A stretch of DNA of 64,000 nucleotides. Origin: Methylobacterium sp. 17Sr1-1. Its GTDB lineage: Bacteria > Pseudomonadota > Alphaproteobacteria > Rhizobiales > Beijerinckiaceae. The first letter of the stretch is position 1; each line of letters starts with the position of its first letter. The position numbers and the translations under genes were made by a program. The stretch covers positions 5,211,001-5,275,000 of the forward strand of contig NZ_CP029552.1 in the NCBI RefSeq assembly GCF_003173775.1, given 5' to 3'. Shown one piece after another: positions 5,060 through 12,229 of the stretch. The notes beneath the pieces were generated by a model. The model saw nothing but the letters and a program-made list of their open reading frames with translations, was not told the DNA's origin and searched no databases.

Positions 5060-6157
5060 ATGCGTGAACCGAATGCGGTCGACTTCTGGCGCGGCATCGC
5101 CCTGATCACGATCTTCATCAACCACATCCCGGGCAACGTCTTCCAGAACTACACCTATTCCCAGTACGGGATCTCTGACGCGGCCGAGCTGTTCGTGTTC
5201 CTGGCCGGCTGGTCGATCGGCATCGCCACCCGCGGGCGCGACGGGGTGCCGGAGCCGGCCCTGCGCACGGTGCTGCGGCTGATCTCGCGCATGGTCGAGG
5301 TGTACCGGGCGCAGCTCGTCATCACCGCCATCGCGCTGGCGATGCTGGCGGGCGCGGCCCTCTACCTCGACAATCCGCTGCTGGTGGAGTGGCACAATGC
5401 CGGGCCGATCTTCAGCGACCCGATCCAGGCCACCGTCGGCTGGGTGACGCTGCTGCACCAGCTCGGCTTCTTCAACATCCTGCCGCTCTACGTCGTGCTG
5501 CTCGGCCTGGCGCCGGCCTTCGTGCTGCTGTCGCGGGTGCATCTCGGCCTCGCGGTCGGGATCTCGGCCCTGCTCTACGCGGTGAGCCTGGTCTTCGAGA
5601 TCAACATCCCGAGCTGGCCGGTGGAGGGGCATTGGTTCTTCAACCCGCTGTGCTGGCAGCTGCTGCTGGTGCTGGGCTTCGCAGCGCACGAGTGGCGGCG
5701 CAGCTCGGAGCGGTTCCTGGCGTGGCGCCGCAAGCTGATGCCGCTCGGGATCGTCATCGTGATCGTCGGCGCGGTCCTGTCCTGGTTCAACCTGCGGCCC
5801 GACCCCCTGGCGGTGCCGGAGCCGCGGCTGCTCTTCATCTTCGACAAGTCCTACCTGTCGCCGGCGCGCCTCGTGCACTTCCTCGGCGTGCTCCTCGCCT
5901 TCCAGGCGGTGTTCGGCCTCGTTCAGCCGCGGGCGCGCTGGCTCACCCGCCAGCTCGCCGGCCTCGGGCGCAATTCGCTCGCGGTGTTCTCGGTCGGCTC
6001 GGTCGCCAGCCTCGGTGCACAGCTGATTCGTTTCTGGAGCGGGGGAGGTTTCGCGACGGACATATTCGTCGTAGGATGCGGGCTGGCCTCACTCTCGTTC
6101 ACGGCATGGTTCGTCGAATGGCGCTCTCGCTCTCCCCGTCCCTCCTCGGCGGCGTGA
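5060..6157 (+). CDS. OpgC-like integral membrane acyl/succinyl-transferase
   Basis: 365 residues with about ten membrane segments. The N-terminus (NAVDFWRGIALITIFINHIP, then AAELFVFLAGWSIG) is the signature of the OpgC family, whose founding member adds succinyl groups to osmoregulated periplasmic glucans. A conserved His in the first helix region (INHIPG) is the likely catalytic residue by analogy with related acyltransferases. Its last 52 bases overlap the start of an SGNH hydrolase gene, so the two are probably translated together and act on one envelope glycan. The substrate is not shown by sequence. Confidence 0.8.
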   Translation: MREPNAVDFWRGIALITIFINHIPGNVFQNYTYSQYGISDAAELFVFLAGWSIGIATRGRDGVPEPALRTVLRLISRMVEVYRAQLVITAIALAMLAGAALYLDNPLLVEWHNAGPIFSDPIQATVGWVTLLHQLGFFNILPLYVVLLGLAPAFVLLSRVHLGLAVGISALLYAVSLVFEINIPSWPVEGHWFFNPLCWQLLLVLGFAAHEWRRSSERFLAWRRKLMPLGIVIVIVGAVLSWFNLRPDPLAVPEPRLLFIFDKSYLSPARLVHFLGVLLAFQAVFGLVQPRARWLTRQLAGLGRNSLAVFSVGSVASLGAQLIRFWSGGGFATDIFVVGCGLASLSFTAWFVEWRSRSPRPSSAA

Positions 6158-7213: not shown

Positions 7214-7257
7214 ATGGCGGGGTGCAGAGTCGTCGAGAGAATGCAGGACACCAAGCA

Positions 7258-8193
7258 ATGCTGAAACCCTGGCTGATCGCCGCCTCCTGCATCGCCCTCC
7301 TCACCGCGATCCCCGCCCCCCGCGCCGCCGAACCCCTACGCCTCGTCCTCGCCACCGCGACGCCCGGCGGCGGGTTTCCGGCCTATGGCGAGGCGCTGGC
7401 GGCGGCGCTCCGGGAGGTGGATCCGGATCTCACCTTGGAGTTGCGCGCCAGCAAGGGCTCGACCGAGAATCTAGTCCTCCTGCGCGATCGCCACGTCGAT
7501 CTCGGCCTCGTCCAGGGCGAGTACGCCTACGAGGCGCTCGAAGGCCAGGGCGCACCGGCGGTGACGGTGGTCGCGCCGGTCTACGCCGCACCCGGCCTGT
7601 TCGTGGTGCCGGCGGGGAGCCCGGTGACGCGCATCGACGACCTGCGCGGGCAAATGGTGGCCCTCGGCACGAAGAGCTCCGGGCTCACCGCCATGGGCCG
7701 AACCGTGCTGCGCGGCTCCGGCATCGACCCCGAGCACGACATCCGCCCGATCCTCCTTGAGCACGCCGGCGACGGCCCGGCGATGGTGCGCGACGGACGG
7801 GCCGCGGCCCTGTTCGGCGGCGGCACCGGCTGGCCGGGCTTCCGGACCATGGCCGAAGCGCCGGGCGGCGCCCGCTTCCTCGGCCCCTCGGCGGCGGCGA
7901 TCCCGGCGATCCTGGCGGCGAGCCCGTCCCTGCGGCGCATCACCGTCGCGCCCGGCACCTTCCCGGGCCAGAACGCGGCGATCGAGACGGTGGGGTCGTG
8001 GAGCTTCGTTCTCGGCCGGCCCGGCCTCGACCCGGCCGCGGTGACCCGCCTCGTCGCGGCGATCGACAAGGCGAAGCCGGCCCTCGCCCGGCTCTTGCCG
8101 CACGAGCGGCCGAGCGACCCGCGCGACTTGAAGGACGCCGTCCCGGCGGCGTGGCTGCACCCCGCGACGGCGGCCTTCCTGCGCGGGGAGTAG
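7258..8193 (+). CDS. TAXI-family TRAP transporter solute-binding protein
   Basis: 311 residues with a signal peptide (MLKPWLIAASCIALLTAIPAPRAA). The mature part begins LRLVLATATPGGGFPAYGEA, then LRASKGSTENLVLLRDRHVDLGLVQ, the ligand-binding pattern of TAXI periplasmic proteins that feed TRAP permeases. A second half with GAKSSG-like (GTKSSGLTAMGR) and GHD-type loops completes a two-lobe binding protein. No TRAP membrane subunit is adjacent; the DctQ/DctM pair at 48-50 kb is far away. The start at 7258 was chosen because the signal peptide begins there; an ATG at 7241 is out of frame. Confidence 0.72.
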   Translation: MLKPWLIAASCIALLTAIPAPRAAEPLRLVLATATPGGGFPAYGEALAAALREVDPDLTLELRASKGSTENLVLLRDRHVDLGLVQGEYAYEALEGQGAPAVTVVAPVYAAPGLFVVPAGSPVTRIDDLRGQMVALGTKSSGLTAMGRTVLRGSGIDPEHDIRPILLEHAGDGPAMVRDGRAAALFGGGTGWPGFRTMAEAPGGARFLGPSAAAIPAILAASPSLRRITVAPGTFPGQNAAIETVGSWSFVLGRPGLDPAAVTRLVAAIDKAKPALARLLPHERPSDPRDLKDAVPAAWLHPATAAFLRGE

Positions 8194-8300
8194 GGCCGGG
8201 AGGCCCTGCCGGACAGTGTGATCCCGCAGCCACAGCGATCGCAACATTATTACATTGCGTTTCTGGATGTTGCTCCCCGGTGGGCGGGCTGCCATGGATG

Positions 8301-8486
8301 GTGCCGCCAAGGTTCCTGGGGCGCGAGCCCGCGGGCGAAGAGGGAACTCGGTGAGTCCTGACGGGACGAAGCCGAGGCTGCCCCCGCAACTGTGAGCGGA
8401 GAGGTCCCGCCGCCGACGGCCACTGGTGCGCCTGCACCGGGAAGGCCAGGCGGGTCCGACGATCCGCGAGCCAGGAGACCTGCCTT
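8301..8486 (+). promoter_or_regulatory. Cobalamin riboswitch
   Basis: The leader shows the conserved blocks of the cobalamin (B12) riboswitch in order: AAGAGGGAACTCGGTG, CTGCCCCCGCAACTGTGAGC (about 8378-8397), GCCACTG (8419-8425), GGGAAGGC (8439-8446) and the B12-box AGCCAGGAGACCTGCC (8469-8484). GGTTCC near 8311 can pair with the GACC at the 3' end. These RNAs normally lower expression of the downstream gene when adenosylcobalamin or a related form binds. The 140 bases between the box and the receptor start probably hold the expression platform, which I could not resolve. Confidence 0.93.
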
Positions 8487-8625
8487 GAGCGCGCGCCGTC
8501 TGGCGCGGTCACGTCCCGCGGGCGGTACGGCCCGGAGGAGCGCTCGGGCATGCGCCGCGCGGACGCGCGGACTCAGCCTGCCGCTCGCCCGGATCGCGTC
8601 GCGCGGCAACAGTCGAGTACGCTCC

Positions 8626-10842
8626 GTGAAACGCCGTCCGCCGTCCCCCAGCGTTCCGTCCGCTCACCCGGCGCCCCACCGGCGTCGGTACGGTGCGACC
8701 CTGGCGACCGCGCTCGCTCTCGGCGCCGCGGCGCCCGAGGCCCGGGCCGAGGAGACCATCGCCCTCGACGAGGTCGTGGTGGAGGGCCCGCGCCCGCCCG
8801 TGCCGGGCCCGAGCCTGCCGGTGCTGCCGACCACCGCCGCCGGCACGATCGGCCTCGTCGGCCCGACCCCGGGCTTTCGCGCCGACCGCGCCGTCAGCAG
8901 CACGAAGACGGACACGCCCCAGCGCGACGTGCCGCAGGTCGTCACCGTCGCCCCCCGCGAGGTCATCACCGATCTGGCGGCGACGCGGGCCGAGCAGGTC
9001 CTCGCCTACACGCCGGGCATCGTGCAGCAGAACAATTTCGGCGGGCTCTCGCCCCTCGGCTACGCCGTGCGCGGCGTCGCCACGGCCGAGATCTACAAGA
9101 ACGGATTTCCCCTCGCCCGCGGGTTCCCGCCCCAGCAGGACACCCAGAACATCGAGCGGATCGAGGTGCTGAAGGGCCCCGGCGGCGGCCTGTTCGGCCG
9201 CAGCGACCCGGGCGGCCTCGTCAACATCATCACCAAGCAGCCGACGAGGGAGCGCTTCGTCGAGATGGGCGGGCTCTGGGGCTCGTTCGAACAGGCCCGC
9301 GGCACGGTCGATGCCGGAGGCAGCCTCGACGAGGAGGGCACGCTCCTCTACCGCTTCAACCTCGCCGCTGGACGCCAGAGCAGCTTCCGGGATTTCGTCG
9401 ACGGCGACCGGCTCCTCGTCGCCCCGGTGGTGAGCTGGCAGGTCACGCCCGATACGCGGGTGACGGTCGAGACCGAATTTCTGCGCAACCGCGCGGTGTT
9501 CGACCGCGGCATCGTGGCGATCAACGGGCAGCTCGGCGCATTGCCGATCTCCCGCTTCCTCGGCGAGCCGGGCCAGAGCATCCATCAATCCAGCGACACG
9601 ATGCAGGTGCGGGTCGACCACCGCTTCGATGCCGACTGGCAGATGCGGCTCGCGACCTACTTCAACACCGGCGCGCTGACCGGCGAGGCGGTGGAGGTGA
9701 GGGGGATCGCCGCCGACAACCGCACCGTCCTGCGCGACCGCAACCTGCGCAATTACCGCTGGGACGTGGCGATCGGCCAGGCCGAGCTGGTCGGACGCTT
9801 CGACACCGCCGGGATCGGCCACACCCTGCTCCTCGGTGTCGAGCGCGAGAGCACCGATGCCCGCTACCAGCAGGTCCGCTCGCGCTTCCGCCAGACGCCC
9901 TATTCCCTCGACATTGATGCCCCGGTCTACGGCCGGCCGCTGCCGCCCTTCGCCTTCCAGACCAACGGATTCGAGCAGGTCACCAACACGGCTTTCTACG
10001 CCCAGGACCAGATCAGCTTGACCCCGGAATGGAAGGCGCTCGTCGGCGCGCGTTTCGACGTCTTCGAGCAGTCGTTCCGGGAGCGGACCACCGGGCTCCA
10101 GACCGACCAGACCCATTTCGCCGCCTCGCCCCGGGCCGGGCTCGTCTACCAGCCGCTACAGGCGCTCTCCTTCTACGCCAATGTCGGCACCAGCTTCCGG
10201 CCGAATACCGGGCCCGACGCGTTCGCGGCGGCACGGAGTGCTCCCTTCGCGCCGGAGAGCGGCCTCGGCTACGAGGTCGGCACCAAGCTCGACCTGTTCG
10301 GAGGCGCCTTGAGCCTCACCGGCGCCGCCTTCCGGGTCGAGCGACAGAACGTGCTGACCGCCGATCCCAACAATTCCGGCTTCTCCCTCGCCGCCGGCGG
10401 CGTCCGCAGCCAGGGCTTCGAGCTCACCGCGTCCGGCCAGATCACGCCGGAGATCAAGGTCCTGGCCGGCTACGTCTTCGCCGACGCGGTGATCACCAAG
10501 GACAATGTGCTGCCGGTCGGCGCGCCCTTGATCAACGTGCCGCGCCATTCGGGCAGCCTGCTCGCGGTCCACGAGGTGCAGGCGGGCCCGTGGAAGGGTT
10601 TCGGCCTCGGCGGCGGCGTGCGCGCCGTCGGCGAGCGGGCGGGCGACGCCAATGCCAGCTTCCGGCTGCCGGGCTACATCGCGGTCGATGCCCTCGCTTA
10701 TTACCGCTGGGAGAATGTCCGGTTCGGCCTGAACGTCGAGAACGTGTTCGACACCACGTATTACGAAAGCTCGCTCAGCGCGCTCCGGGTCTATCCGGGA
10801 GCGCCGCGCCGGTTCACCGGAACCCTGTCGGTGCGGTTCTGA
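8626..10842 (+). CDS. TonB-dependent outer-membrane receptor, siderophore type, under riboswitch control
   Basis: About 738 residues. A basic N-terminus leads into a signal helix (ATLATALALGAAAPEARA), then a TonB-box-like stretch (ETIALDEVVVEG). The plug domain, about 85-200, has TKTDTPQRDVPQVVTV, YTPGIVQQNNFGG and IERIEVLKGPGGGLFGRSDPGGLVNIITK. A 22-strand-type barrel follows, ending in the typical TLSVRF with terminal Phe. The plug resembles ferric-siderophore receptors more than BtuB, yet a cobalamin riboswitch precedes it, so the cargo may be a corrinoid or a cobalt chelate. The GTG at 8626 is the likeliest in-frame start but has no clear ribosome-binding site. The stop overlaps the next gene by one base. 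Confidence 0.85.
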   Translation: MKRRPPSPSVPSAHPAPHRRRYGATLATALALGAAAPEARAEETIALDEVVVEGPRPPVPGPSLPVLPTTAAGTIGLVGPTPGFRADRAVSSTKTDTPQRDVPQVVTVAPREVITDLAATRAEQVLAYTPGIVQQNNFGGLSPLGYAVRGVATAEIYKNGFPLARGFPPQQDTQNIERIEVLKGPGGGLFGRSDPGGLVNIITKQPTRERFVEMGGLWGSFEQARGTVDAGGSLDEEGTLLYRFNLAAGRQSSFRDFVDGDRLLVAPVVSWQVTPDTRVTVETEFLRNRAVFDRGIVAINGQLGALPISRFLGEPGQSIHQSSDTMQVRVDHRFDADWQMRLATYFNTGALTGEAVEVRGIAADNRTVLRDRNLRNYRWDVAIGQAELVGRFDTAGIGHTLLLGVERESTDARYQQVRSRFRQTPYSLDIDAPVYGRPLPPFAFQTNGFEQVTNTAFYAQDQISLTPEWKALVGARFDVFEQSFRERTTGLQTDQTHFAASPRAGLVYQPLQALSFYANVGTSFRPNTGPDAFAAARSAPFAPESGLGYEVGTKLDLFGGALSLTGAAFRVERQNVLTADPNNSGFSLAAGGVRSQGFELTASGQITPEIKVLAGYVFADAVITKDNVLPVGAPLINVPRHSGSLLAVHEVQAGPWKGFGLGGGVRAVGERAGDANASFRLPGYIAVDALAYYRWENVRFGLNVENVFDTTYYESSLSALRVYPGAPRRFTGTLSVRF

Positions 10843-11081
10843 TGGTGGCTCTCCGCAAGGGCGATGCCGGCCGCGATGCCGCCGCCGCCCGCGCCCGGCG
10901 CTACCGCCGGGACCTCGCGCCGGTCCTGGCGGTGATCGCCGCCGAGACCGGCGGGACCCCCGAGGGCATCGCCGCCTCGCTGACCCGGCGCGGGGTGCGC
11001 AAGCCCCGCGGCGGCCCGATCTGGACGCCGCCGGACGTGCGCCGGCTCCTCGCCCGCCTCGCCGCCGAGACCGGATCATGA
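10842..11081 (+). CDS. 79-residue recombinase-tail-like helix-turn-helix protein
   Basis: The ATG overlaps the receptor's TGA, and its own TGA overlaps the next start (ATGA), which implies translational coupling on both sides. The sequence resembles the small helical segment found in serine recombinases downstream of the catalytic domain: IAAETGGTPEGIAASLTRRG, then RKPRGG and WTPPDVRRLLARL. That pattern (repeat-IA-x-x-L-x-x-RG-x-x-RGG-x-W-x-V-x-x-lL) normally contacts DNA. No catalytic recombinase domain is present, so recombination is unlikely; a small DNA-binding regulator is one possibility. Function unknown. Confidence 0.7.
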   Translation: MVALRKGDAGRDAAAARARRYRRDLAPVLAVIAAETGGTPEGIAASLTRRGVRKPRGGPIWTPPDVRRLLARLAAETGS

Positions 11082-12229
11082 CGTCAGCGTCCACATCTAC
11101 GCCCACGACCGCCCCGCGCATCGGCGCGATCGACGCCCTGCGCGGCCTCGTCATGCTGCTGATGCTGGTCGACCACGTGCGGGAGACCGTCTTCCTGCAC
11201 GCCCAGCTCCGCGATCCGATGGACCTCGCGGTCACTGCCCCCGACCTGGTGGCGACGCGGCTGACCTCGCATCTCTGCGCACCGGTCTTCCTGCTGCTCA
11301 CCGGCCTCTCGGCCTGCCTCTACGCGGGCAAGCACGGCACGGGCGCGGCCTCGCGCTTCCTGCTCACCCGCGGCCTGTTCCTGATCGGGCTCGAGGTCAC
11401 GCTCGTGAACCTCGCCTGGACGGGCCGGCTCCTGCCGCCGGTCCTCTACCTGCAGGTGATCTGGGCCATCGGCCTCAGCATGGTCGCGCTCGCGGGCCTG
11501 CTGCGGCTGCCGCGCCCCGCCCTGGCGGCGGTCGCCCTCGTCATCATGCTCGGCCACAACCTCCTCGACGGGATCGTGCTGGCGCCGGGCCAGGCCGGCT
11601 ACGTGCCGTGGTCGATCCTGCACCAGCGCGGCCTCATCGACCTGCCCTGGGGGGTGGCCCGCACCTCCTATCCGGTACTGCCCTGGATCGGCGTCGCGGC
11701 GGCGGGCTACGCCCTCGGACCGTGGTTCGCCCTCGATCCCGATGCCCGGCGGCGCCGGCTCCTCGCCCTCGGGGCGGCGGCGCTCGCCGGGTTCCTGGTG
11801 CTGCGGGGGCTCGACGGCTACGGCGAGCCGGTGCCCTGGCAGGCCGGCCCGACGATCGGGGCGACGGTCCTGTCCTTCCTCAATCTCACCAAGTACCCGC
11901 CCTCCGCCTGCTTCCTGCTGCTCACTCTGGGCCTCGGGCTCTGGCTCCTCGCCCTGTTCGAGGCGCTGCCGGCCGCGCGCCTTGCCTGGCTGCGGGTGTT
12001 CGGGGGGACGCCCTTGTTCTTCTACGTCGTCCATCTCTGGCTGTTGCGCGGGCTTCATCATCTCGCGCTGGCCCTCGGCTTCGCCGGCATGTCAGGGAGG
12101 GTCGAGGCCGGGTCGCCGGCGCAGCTCTGGCTGATCGCGGCGCTCCTCAGCCTGCCGCTCTACGGGGCGTGCCGCTGGATGGTGGGGCTGAAGCGGCGGG
12201 GGCGGCATCCGGTGCTGAGCTATCTGTAG
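11078..12229 (+). CDS. DUF1624-type membrane protein, acyltransferase-like
   Basis: 383 residues with about ten membrane segments. The first (IGAIDALRGLVMLLMLVDHV) carries the RG...DH motif of the DUF1624 / heparan-glucosaminide acetyltransferase-like group, whose conserved histidine is thought to carry an acetyl group across the membrane. A later segment (GGTPLFFYVVHLWLLRGLHH) holds further conserved histidines. It is the last gene of the riboswitch-controlled operon and starts inside the previous stop codon. The substrate is unknown; modification of an envelope component or a bound nutrient is speculative. Confidence 0.78.
   Translation: MTSASTSTPTTAPRIGAIDALRGLVMLLMLVDHVRETVFLHAQLRDPMDLAVTAPDLVATRLTSHLCAPVFLLLTGLSACLYAGKHGTGAASRFLLTRGLFLIGLEVTLVNLAWTGRLLPPVLYLQVIWAIGLSMVALAGLLRLPRPALAAVALVIMLGHNLLDGIVLAPGQAGYVPWSILHQRGLIDLPWGVARTSYPVLPWIGVAAAGYALGPWFALDPDARRRRLLALGAAALAGFLVLRGLDGYGEPVPWQAGPTIGATVLSFLNLTKYPPSACFLLLTLGLGLWLLALFEALPAARLAWLRVFGGTPLFFYVVHLWLLRGLHHLALALGFAGMSGRVEAGSPAQLWLIAALLSLPLYGACRWMVGLKRRGRHPVLSYL

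Follow-up and report, generated by a model that had tools for sequence, protein, structure and literature searches.

A Methylobacterium operon coupling a siderophore-type receptor and an HGSNAT-type protein, preceded by a candidate Zur-type box and a cobalamin riboswitch

What does a siderophore-type receptor carry when its operon lies behind a cobalamin riboswitch? The question is raised by a locus of Methylobacterium sp. 17Sr1-1. The genome of this strain, a single contig of 6.54 Mb, contains four such switches in total. We analyzed it within a 64-kb stretch of that contig (hereafter, the window). The initial annotation had placed a receptor, a small protein and a membrane acyltransferase-like protein behind the riboswitch and had proposed a corrinoid or cobalt-chelate system.

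The locus and its gene products

The features, in window coordinates, are as follows.

8241..8258, no strand assigned: Zur-like box GCAACATTATTACATTGC, an 18-bp palindrome 34 bp upstream of the aptamer
8270..8275, + strand: putative -35 element TTGCTC; in 20 of 21 loci, TTG[AC][CT] follows the box by no more than 30 bp
8293..8501, + strand: cobalamin riboswitch aptamer (RF00174, 113.1 bits against a gathering threshold of 31.5, model positions 1-189, E 1.5e-27)
8502..8625, + strand: leader 3' of the aptamer
8626..10842, + strand: siderophore-type TonB-dependent receptor, GTG at 8626 as putative start (TIGR01783, 360.1 bits)
10842..11081, + strand: 79-aa protein, weakly HTH_62/recombinase-like, an optional part (PF20552, 20.1 bits, cut-off 27)
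11078..12229, + strand: HGSNAT-type membrane acetyltransferase (PF07786, 52.6 bits, cut-off 22)

The RF00174 match, the sole one in the window to reach an Rfam gathering threshold, bears out the riboswitch, and the coordinates of the ORFs agree with the described three-gene operon, the receptor and small ORFs overlapping by 1 base and the small and acetyltransferase ORFs by 4 bases. The receptor frame is open upstream to 8392, that is, within the aptamer. A promoter/terminator scan detected no terminator-like site in the leader, and a sigma-70 consensus scan found no promoter around 8270-8275. The predicted fold of 8293-8660 was no better than that of shuffled sequences (z -0.69). Upstream lie genes for an OpgC-family protein (PF10129, 257.9 bits) and a TAXI-type solute-binding protein (window 5060-6157 and 7222-8193), for which we saw no sign of operon membership.

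The siderophore-type assignment of the receptor held: its TIGR01783 score compares with a cut-off of 223.5, and the PF07715 and PF00593 matches were also above cut-off. The nearest solved chains are labeled CntO/FoxA (238 bits) and FhuA; the CntO label of those entries looks doubtful. The receptor fails both models of B12 receptors, with 46.9 bits against 599.7 for TIGR01779 and 19.4 against 836 for PRK10641.

The third protein had been called DUF1624-like, which we take to be the older name of the HGSNAT-type family, and on the PF07786 match it is therefore HGSNAT-type. Human HGSNAT moves acetyl groups across the membrane. The AlphaFold model of the enzyme (pLDDT 89.1) matched human HGSNAT structures: 13 of the first 15 matches bore that title and 2 were titled "membrane proteins" (probability 1.00, TM by query 0.49-0.60, rmsd 6.5-8.5). 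A PDB search with the enzyme profile returned no match at E 0.1. H41, considered as the active-site histidine, was dropped, as it is not invariant in a 25-row alignment. The "recombinase-tail-like" label of the small protein corresponds to a match to PF07508 (Recombinase) that is below threshold (15.6 versus 21.1 bits), as is the match to PF20552.

Conservation of the operon and of the riboswitch

The enzyme was found in 20 of 61 genomes (the own genome and 60 relatives), all of them of the genus, and in 7 of 385 genomes drawn evenly across the class, 3 of these being short weak matches. RF00174 lies upstream of the receptor in 18 of the 20 fetched loci; the exceptions are L076, which ends at a contig end, and L074, where neither switch nor receptor was found. 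A scan of named genomes listed the best 80 loci; 30 belong to Methylobacterium/Methylorubrum, where M. platani ranked highest (84%), and the other 50 come from elsewhere. The fetched 20 and the named 30 share species. Among these listed matches, a purpose-built covariance model detected the switch in 24 of 30 genus loci and in none of the 50 others. The six switchless genus loci listed comprise three at contig ends (L141, L159, and L163), one with no receptor (L196), and two with a receptor present (L150 and L161), where no switch appeared even at E 1. The small protein occurs in 15 of the 30 named genus loci among the matches listed and is therefore no defining part of the operon. Thus, the expectation that the genes stay together behind B12 switches holds in the genus for the receptor and the acetyltransferase, but not for the small protein. 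In 9 of the 30 named genus loci (among the matches listed), and likewise in L068, L070, and L073, an ABC-2 transporter lies between receptor and enzyme; one ABC-2 permease pair among the relatives carries DUF3526.

Further riboswitches adjoin the operon in some relatives. At L075:7370-15363, three cobalamin riboswitches occur within 8 kb; one goes with the receptor and HGSNAT-type enzyme, and another with a second receptor and a Ni/Co permease of HoxN/NixA type. This is the only one of the 20 fetched loci in which a Ni/Co permease adjoins the operon, compared with 0 of 84 in another set (among the matches listed). In L065, L078, and L079, a separate riboswitch operon next door encodes a BtuB-like receptor, a periplasmic binding protein, and a permease (families tested in L078). 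The neighboring operon of L078 (989-7489) also encodes a DUF6925 protein and an AAA_33 kinase-like protein, and the presence of DUF6925 within a B12 operon merits study.

A palindromic box and its link to zinc

The 18-bp palindrome at 8241-8258 had been overlooked in the initial annotation. It matches the self-complementary motif RNAAYRTWATWAYRTTNY at 18 of 18 positions and is the only site in the whole window scoring at least 16. This motif had been set by visual inspection of a few sites, prior to counting. Within the clade of the receptor, a box scoring 16-18 is found upstream of the aptamer in 31 of 33 rows, which represent 20 different 18-mers and include some species twice; the other two rows, apparently one species, carry an 18/18 site between aptamer and receptor. 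Across 21 loci, the information content was 1.23 bits per column in the box versus 0.33 and 0.48 in its flanks, and a score of at least 16 was reached by 21 of 21 real 90-bp stretches versus 5 of 6300 shuffled ones. Among the matches listed, the box is present in all 23 named enzyme-bearing clade loci with upstream sequence: it precedes the switch in 20, follows it in L157, and stands without a switch in L150 and L161. In these last three loci, the box overlaps the -10 of a putative TTGCNN-17-TAATAA promoter, an arrangement that fits repression.

The receptor tree supports both this clade and its sister (SH-aLRT 97 and 99). It omitted 9 of 82 rows (same species, short, or another family), two ORFs of more than 850 aa were trimmed to the last 760, and L092 and L097 fall within its group A although they lack both a switch and a box of 16. 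Because L150 and L161 lie inside the box clade, the tree points to two losses of the switch. The sister clade (57-58% identity) has the switch, and the box was found in 0 of its 10 rows; similarly, L131, with a 62%-identical receptor behind a riboswitch, showed no box. Receptor loci without the enzyme (L092, L093, L095, and L097) had no switch and no box of at least 16 (best, 15), and three of these four genomes gave no enzyme match anywhere. In one member of the sister clade (L154:1521-5457), a Zur-like box precedes separate ABC-2 genes, and no box-clade receptor is present; by eye, the intervening sequence resembles a decayed riboswitch leader.

The zinc link comes from a znuA-site pattern that was searched in six genomes with up to three mismatches. 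It occurred at 24 places, versus 9 for the reversed pattern. These were the operon itself (5), a ZnuA-family gene (PF01297; 5), a CobW-family GTPase (3), and other siderophore-type receptors (2); among the remaining 9, the three places read showed no zinc gene. Counted by genome, 5 of 6 have such a site ahead of a ZnuA-family gene, and 3 of 6 have one ahead of a gene for a ZigA-like GTPase. The CobW-family GTPase that was scanned is nearest ZigA (595.7 bits against a cut-off of 600), and two scanned ZnuA-family proteins are nearest the zinc-binding AztC, below cut-off (~325 of 350). The pattern was chosen after the znuA sites of G000, G467, and G468 had been seen, and these three matches are therefore not independent; the three ZigA-like sites, as well as the znuA sites of G024 and G012, are new matches. 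With a first box pattern, built from two loci, none of the loci read had shown a zinc gene. We regard the box as a candidate Zur operator, whose motif is common to the ZnuA-family and ZigA-like sites. Unlike published boxes, it is placed before the putative -35, and it is symmetric about an even center, in contrast to the 7-1-7 form described for Rhizobiales Zur boxes in the accessible text of PMC7029138. Zinc was absent from the earlier reading of the locus, and it is this box that brings it in.

The other three switches of the own genome precede an operon at L007, a second receptor type (TBDR2, L006), and a FoxA/FhuA-like receptor (TBDR3, L005). The L007 genes are presumably CbtB-CbtA-CobW-Uma2-CobN. 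In a control set of 29 other riboswitch loci, no box was found upstream of the switch (0/29). A box within 300 nt downstream of it occurred in 12 of the 29, all among the 14 loci with a TBDR3-like next gene; none of the remaining 15 had a box of at least 16. Altogether, 384 kb (the 20 fetched loci, the window, and three own-genome stretches) contained 14 sites of at least 16, 13 of them at box-clade or TBDR3 receptors. At the own TBDR3 locus, the riboswitch (1874243-1874445) is followed by a 17/18 box (L005:8057-8074) ahead of the receptor gene, and is itself closely preceded by a transposase-like ORF. The box sits inside TTG[TC]AA-17-TAGNNN in 8 of the 14 TBDR3 loci versus 0 of the 15 others. 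Loci of the TBDR3 type could therefore have a promoter downstream of the switch, open to blocking by a repressor, and would be expressed when either B12 or zinc is low (an "or" logic). The window type differs in that its box stands ahead of the putative -35 and the riboswitch would be part of the transcript; there, an "and" logic may apply, and zinc could even act as an activator.

What the operon may import

Regulation of the operon by both box and switch is supported by the sequence; the regulator, the substrate, the part played by the enzyme, and the direction of the zinc effect we infer. We give an even chance to the reading that the operon imports a zinc and/or cobalt chelate under Zur-type and B12 control, with the enzyme modifying the ligand. 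The Zur-type operator near the promoter would sense zinc, and the riboswitch would lower expression when B12 is plentiful, i.e., when the demand for cobalt is met. The receptor would carry a complex of metal and siderophore-like ligand into the periplasm, where the HGSNAT-type enzyme may transfer acetyl from cytosolic acetyl-CoA to the ligand, freeing the metal or marking the empty ligand. The ABC-2 transporter of some relatives may move the ligand or the metal. Periplasmic acetylation of the ligand is proposed on the basis of the siderophore-type receptor, the HGSNAT-like model, and a precedent in Pseudomonas aeruginosa, where Hannauer and colleagues in 2010 reportedly described ferrichrome uptake with siderophore acylation. 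Going by the title of that work, the likeness is that the ligand is acylated, once the receptor has taken it up, as a step in releasing the metal, although in an iron system.

Enzyme loci outside the genus bear on this reading and on its alternatives. Among the matches listed, 36 of 50 such loci have, no more than 800 bp from the enzyme, a receptor resembling one of three references, in 32 divergently and in 4 codirectionally; these receptors are ~31-39% identical to that of Methylobacterium sp. 17Sr1-1. The other 14 of the 50 listed have no receptor within 800 bp, and eight of the 14 that were read share no neighbor. It is unlikely, in our estimate, that the acetyltransferase works on an envelope sugar or another compound outside metal uptake. 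Its known relative does acetylate a sugar, and the receptorless loci favor such a role; against it stand the frequent pairing with a receptor and the lack of both switch and box at the receptor copies that have no enzyme.

Zur-like sites accompany the pair outside the genus as well. In 21 divergent Caulobacterales gaps, GTAATGTTATTACATATC-like sites had raw scores of 13-15 of 18 on a Zur consensus, and 11 Sphingomonas-type gaps had raw scores of 11-15 on the same consensus. These sites first came to light in a scan of the non-genus gaps for a Fur box, a candidate that was rejected, as the gaps reached 9-12 of 19 on a Fur consensus, within the range of random windows drawn from those loci. The Caulobacterales pair of receptor and enzyme is similar, with a Zur-like site and no riboswitch. 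Of the 50 loci outside the genus, 23 had their genomes covered by one search, along with three further genomes. In three Caulobacter genomes, the Zur pattern with at most one mismatch occurred at 4-5 places each, the receptor-enzyme gap among them; in G453, two other places precede receptors nearest ZnuD (466.8 and 254.5 bits on fragments; cut-off 950). One place in each of the three genomes precedes a MerC-family protein (L238, L239, and L243, near position 1501; one scanned). The gap sites read GTTA-5N-TATC, in contrast to the GTTA-5N-TAAC given for Caulobacter Zur sites in the available text of PMC4176598.

Uptake of a cobalt chelate only, with the B12 switch reporting cobalt need, the box serving another regulator, and zinc irrelevant, we consider quite unlikely. 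It would accord with the switch before the presumed CbtB-CbtA-CobW-CobN operon of the own genome, the Ni/Co permease that adjoins the operon in L075 under a switch of its own, and the sister clade, which has the switch without the box. A predicted cobalt receptor with a B12 switch, a NiCoT permease, and CobW has also been described (PMC7689651, in the part accessible). Against it stand the box-like sites before ZnuA-family and ZigA-like genes and the retention of the box in the two switchless loci.

There is a slim chance that the receptor is a plain iron-siderophore receptor tuned by the two elements for indirect reasons: its nearest models or chains are TIGR01783, FhuA, and FoxA, but the elements found are of the B12 and zinc types, and the Fur matches outside the genus were no better than random windows. 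Slimmer still is the chance of a corrinoid receptor with a corrinoid-modifying acetyltransferase, for which riboswitch control and the adjoining BtuB-like operons of L065, L078, and L079 may speak, but which fails on the TIGR01779 score, would predict no zinc box, and is disfavored by the lack of a switch at all 50 listed enzyme loci outside the genus and by the very separateness of those BtuB-like operons. Of the initially proposed "corrinoid or cobalt-chelate" system, the cobalt-chelate part thus stays plausible, while the corrinoid receptor is not supported.

Returning to import of a zinc and/or cobalt chelate, a broader version is somewhat unlikely as a whole. It holds that a single imported chelate would supply both zinc and cobalt, and that for this reason two metallophore receptor families answer to a B12 riboswitch as well as a zinc regulator, one in the order box-switch-receptor and the other in the order switch-box-receptor; release of the metal in the periplasm would fall to the HGSNAT-type enzyme.

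Receptors behind B12 riboswitches are already known, and so are receptors under Zur control. Apparently new is their combination: neither a joint Zur-type box and B12 riboswitch on one operon, here repeated in a second receptor family, nor the pairing of an HGSNAT-type protein with a receptor was found in the literature searched, most subscription papers lying outside it. According to the accessible text of a 2021 review, no cobalt-specific outer-membrane receptor has been confirmed (PMC7689651). The locus thus offers a conserved candidate for one in a tractable genus, with sequence-level grounds to test zinc and cobalt jointly, and bacterial HGSNAT-type proteins would gain a testable role.

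Comparison with known systems

The receptor resembles BtuB in being TonB-dependent and under a riboswitch, and differs in its TIGR01779 score (46.9 bits, cut-off 599.7). The enzyme shares its Pfam family and fold with human HGSNAT, at ~13-14% identity. Within the same genus, IcuAB of Methylobacterium extorquens likewise has a TonB receptor linked to cobalt uptake and a 4-bp gene overlap; compared by description, its partner is a COG5266 periplasmic protein and no acetyltransferase (PMC2732905 and PMC3621897, as far as accessible). In Novosphingobium aromaticivorans, a B12 riboswitch similarly precedes a TonB receptor predicted for cobalt, presumably as chelates; the partner genes, NiCoT and CobW, are different, and a zinc box is not described in the accessible text (PMC7689651).

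The Zur regulon of Caulobacter crescentus comprises the receptor gene znuK with the znuGHI ABC-2 transporter, znuL, and znuM, so that Zur controls receptors together with an ABC-2 transporter; the available text of the paper mentions no B12 riboswitch or HGSNAT-type gene (PMC4176598). ZnuGHI and the ABC-2 transporter of the Methylobacterium relatives are likened by gene order alone. A link through the DUF3526 permease was dropped: of six genomes searched, only that of Methylobacterium Leaf99 yielded a homologue, the other five being those of M. gossipiicola, a Sphingomonas, a Brevundimonas, and two Caulobacter. What the two systems have in common, as far as the accessible text goes, is zinc TonB receptors under a Zur box and, in some Methylobacterium relatives, an ABC-2 ATPase with two permeases beside the receptor (PMC4176598).
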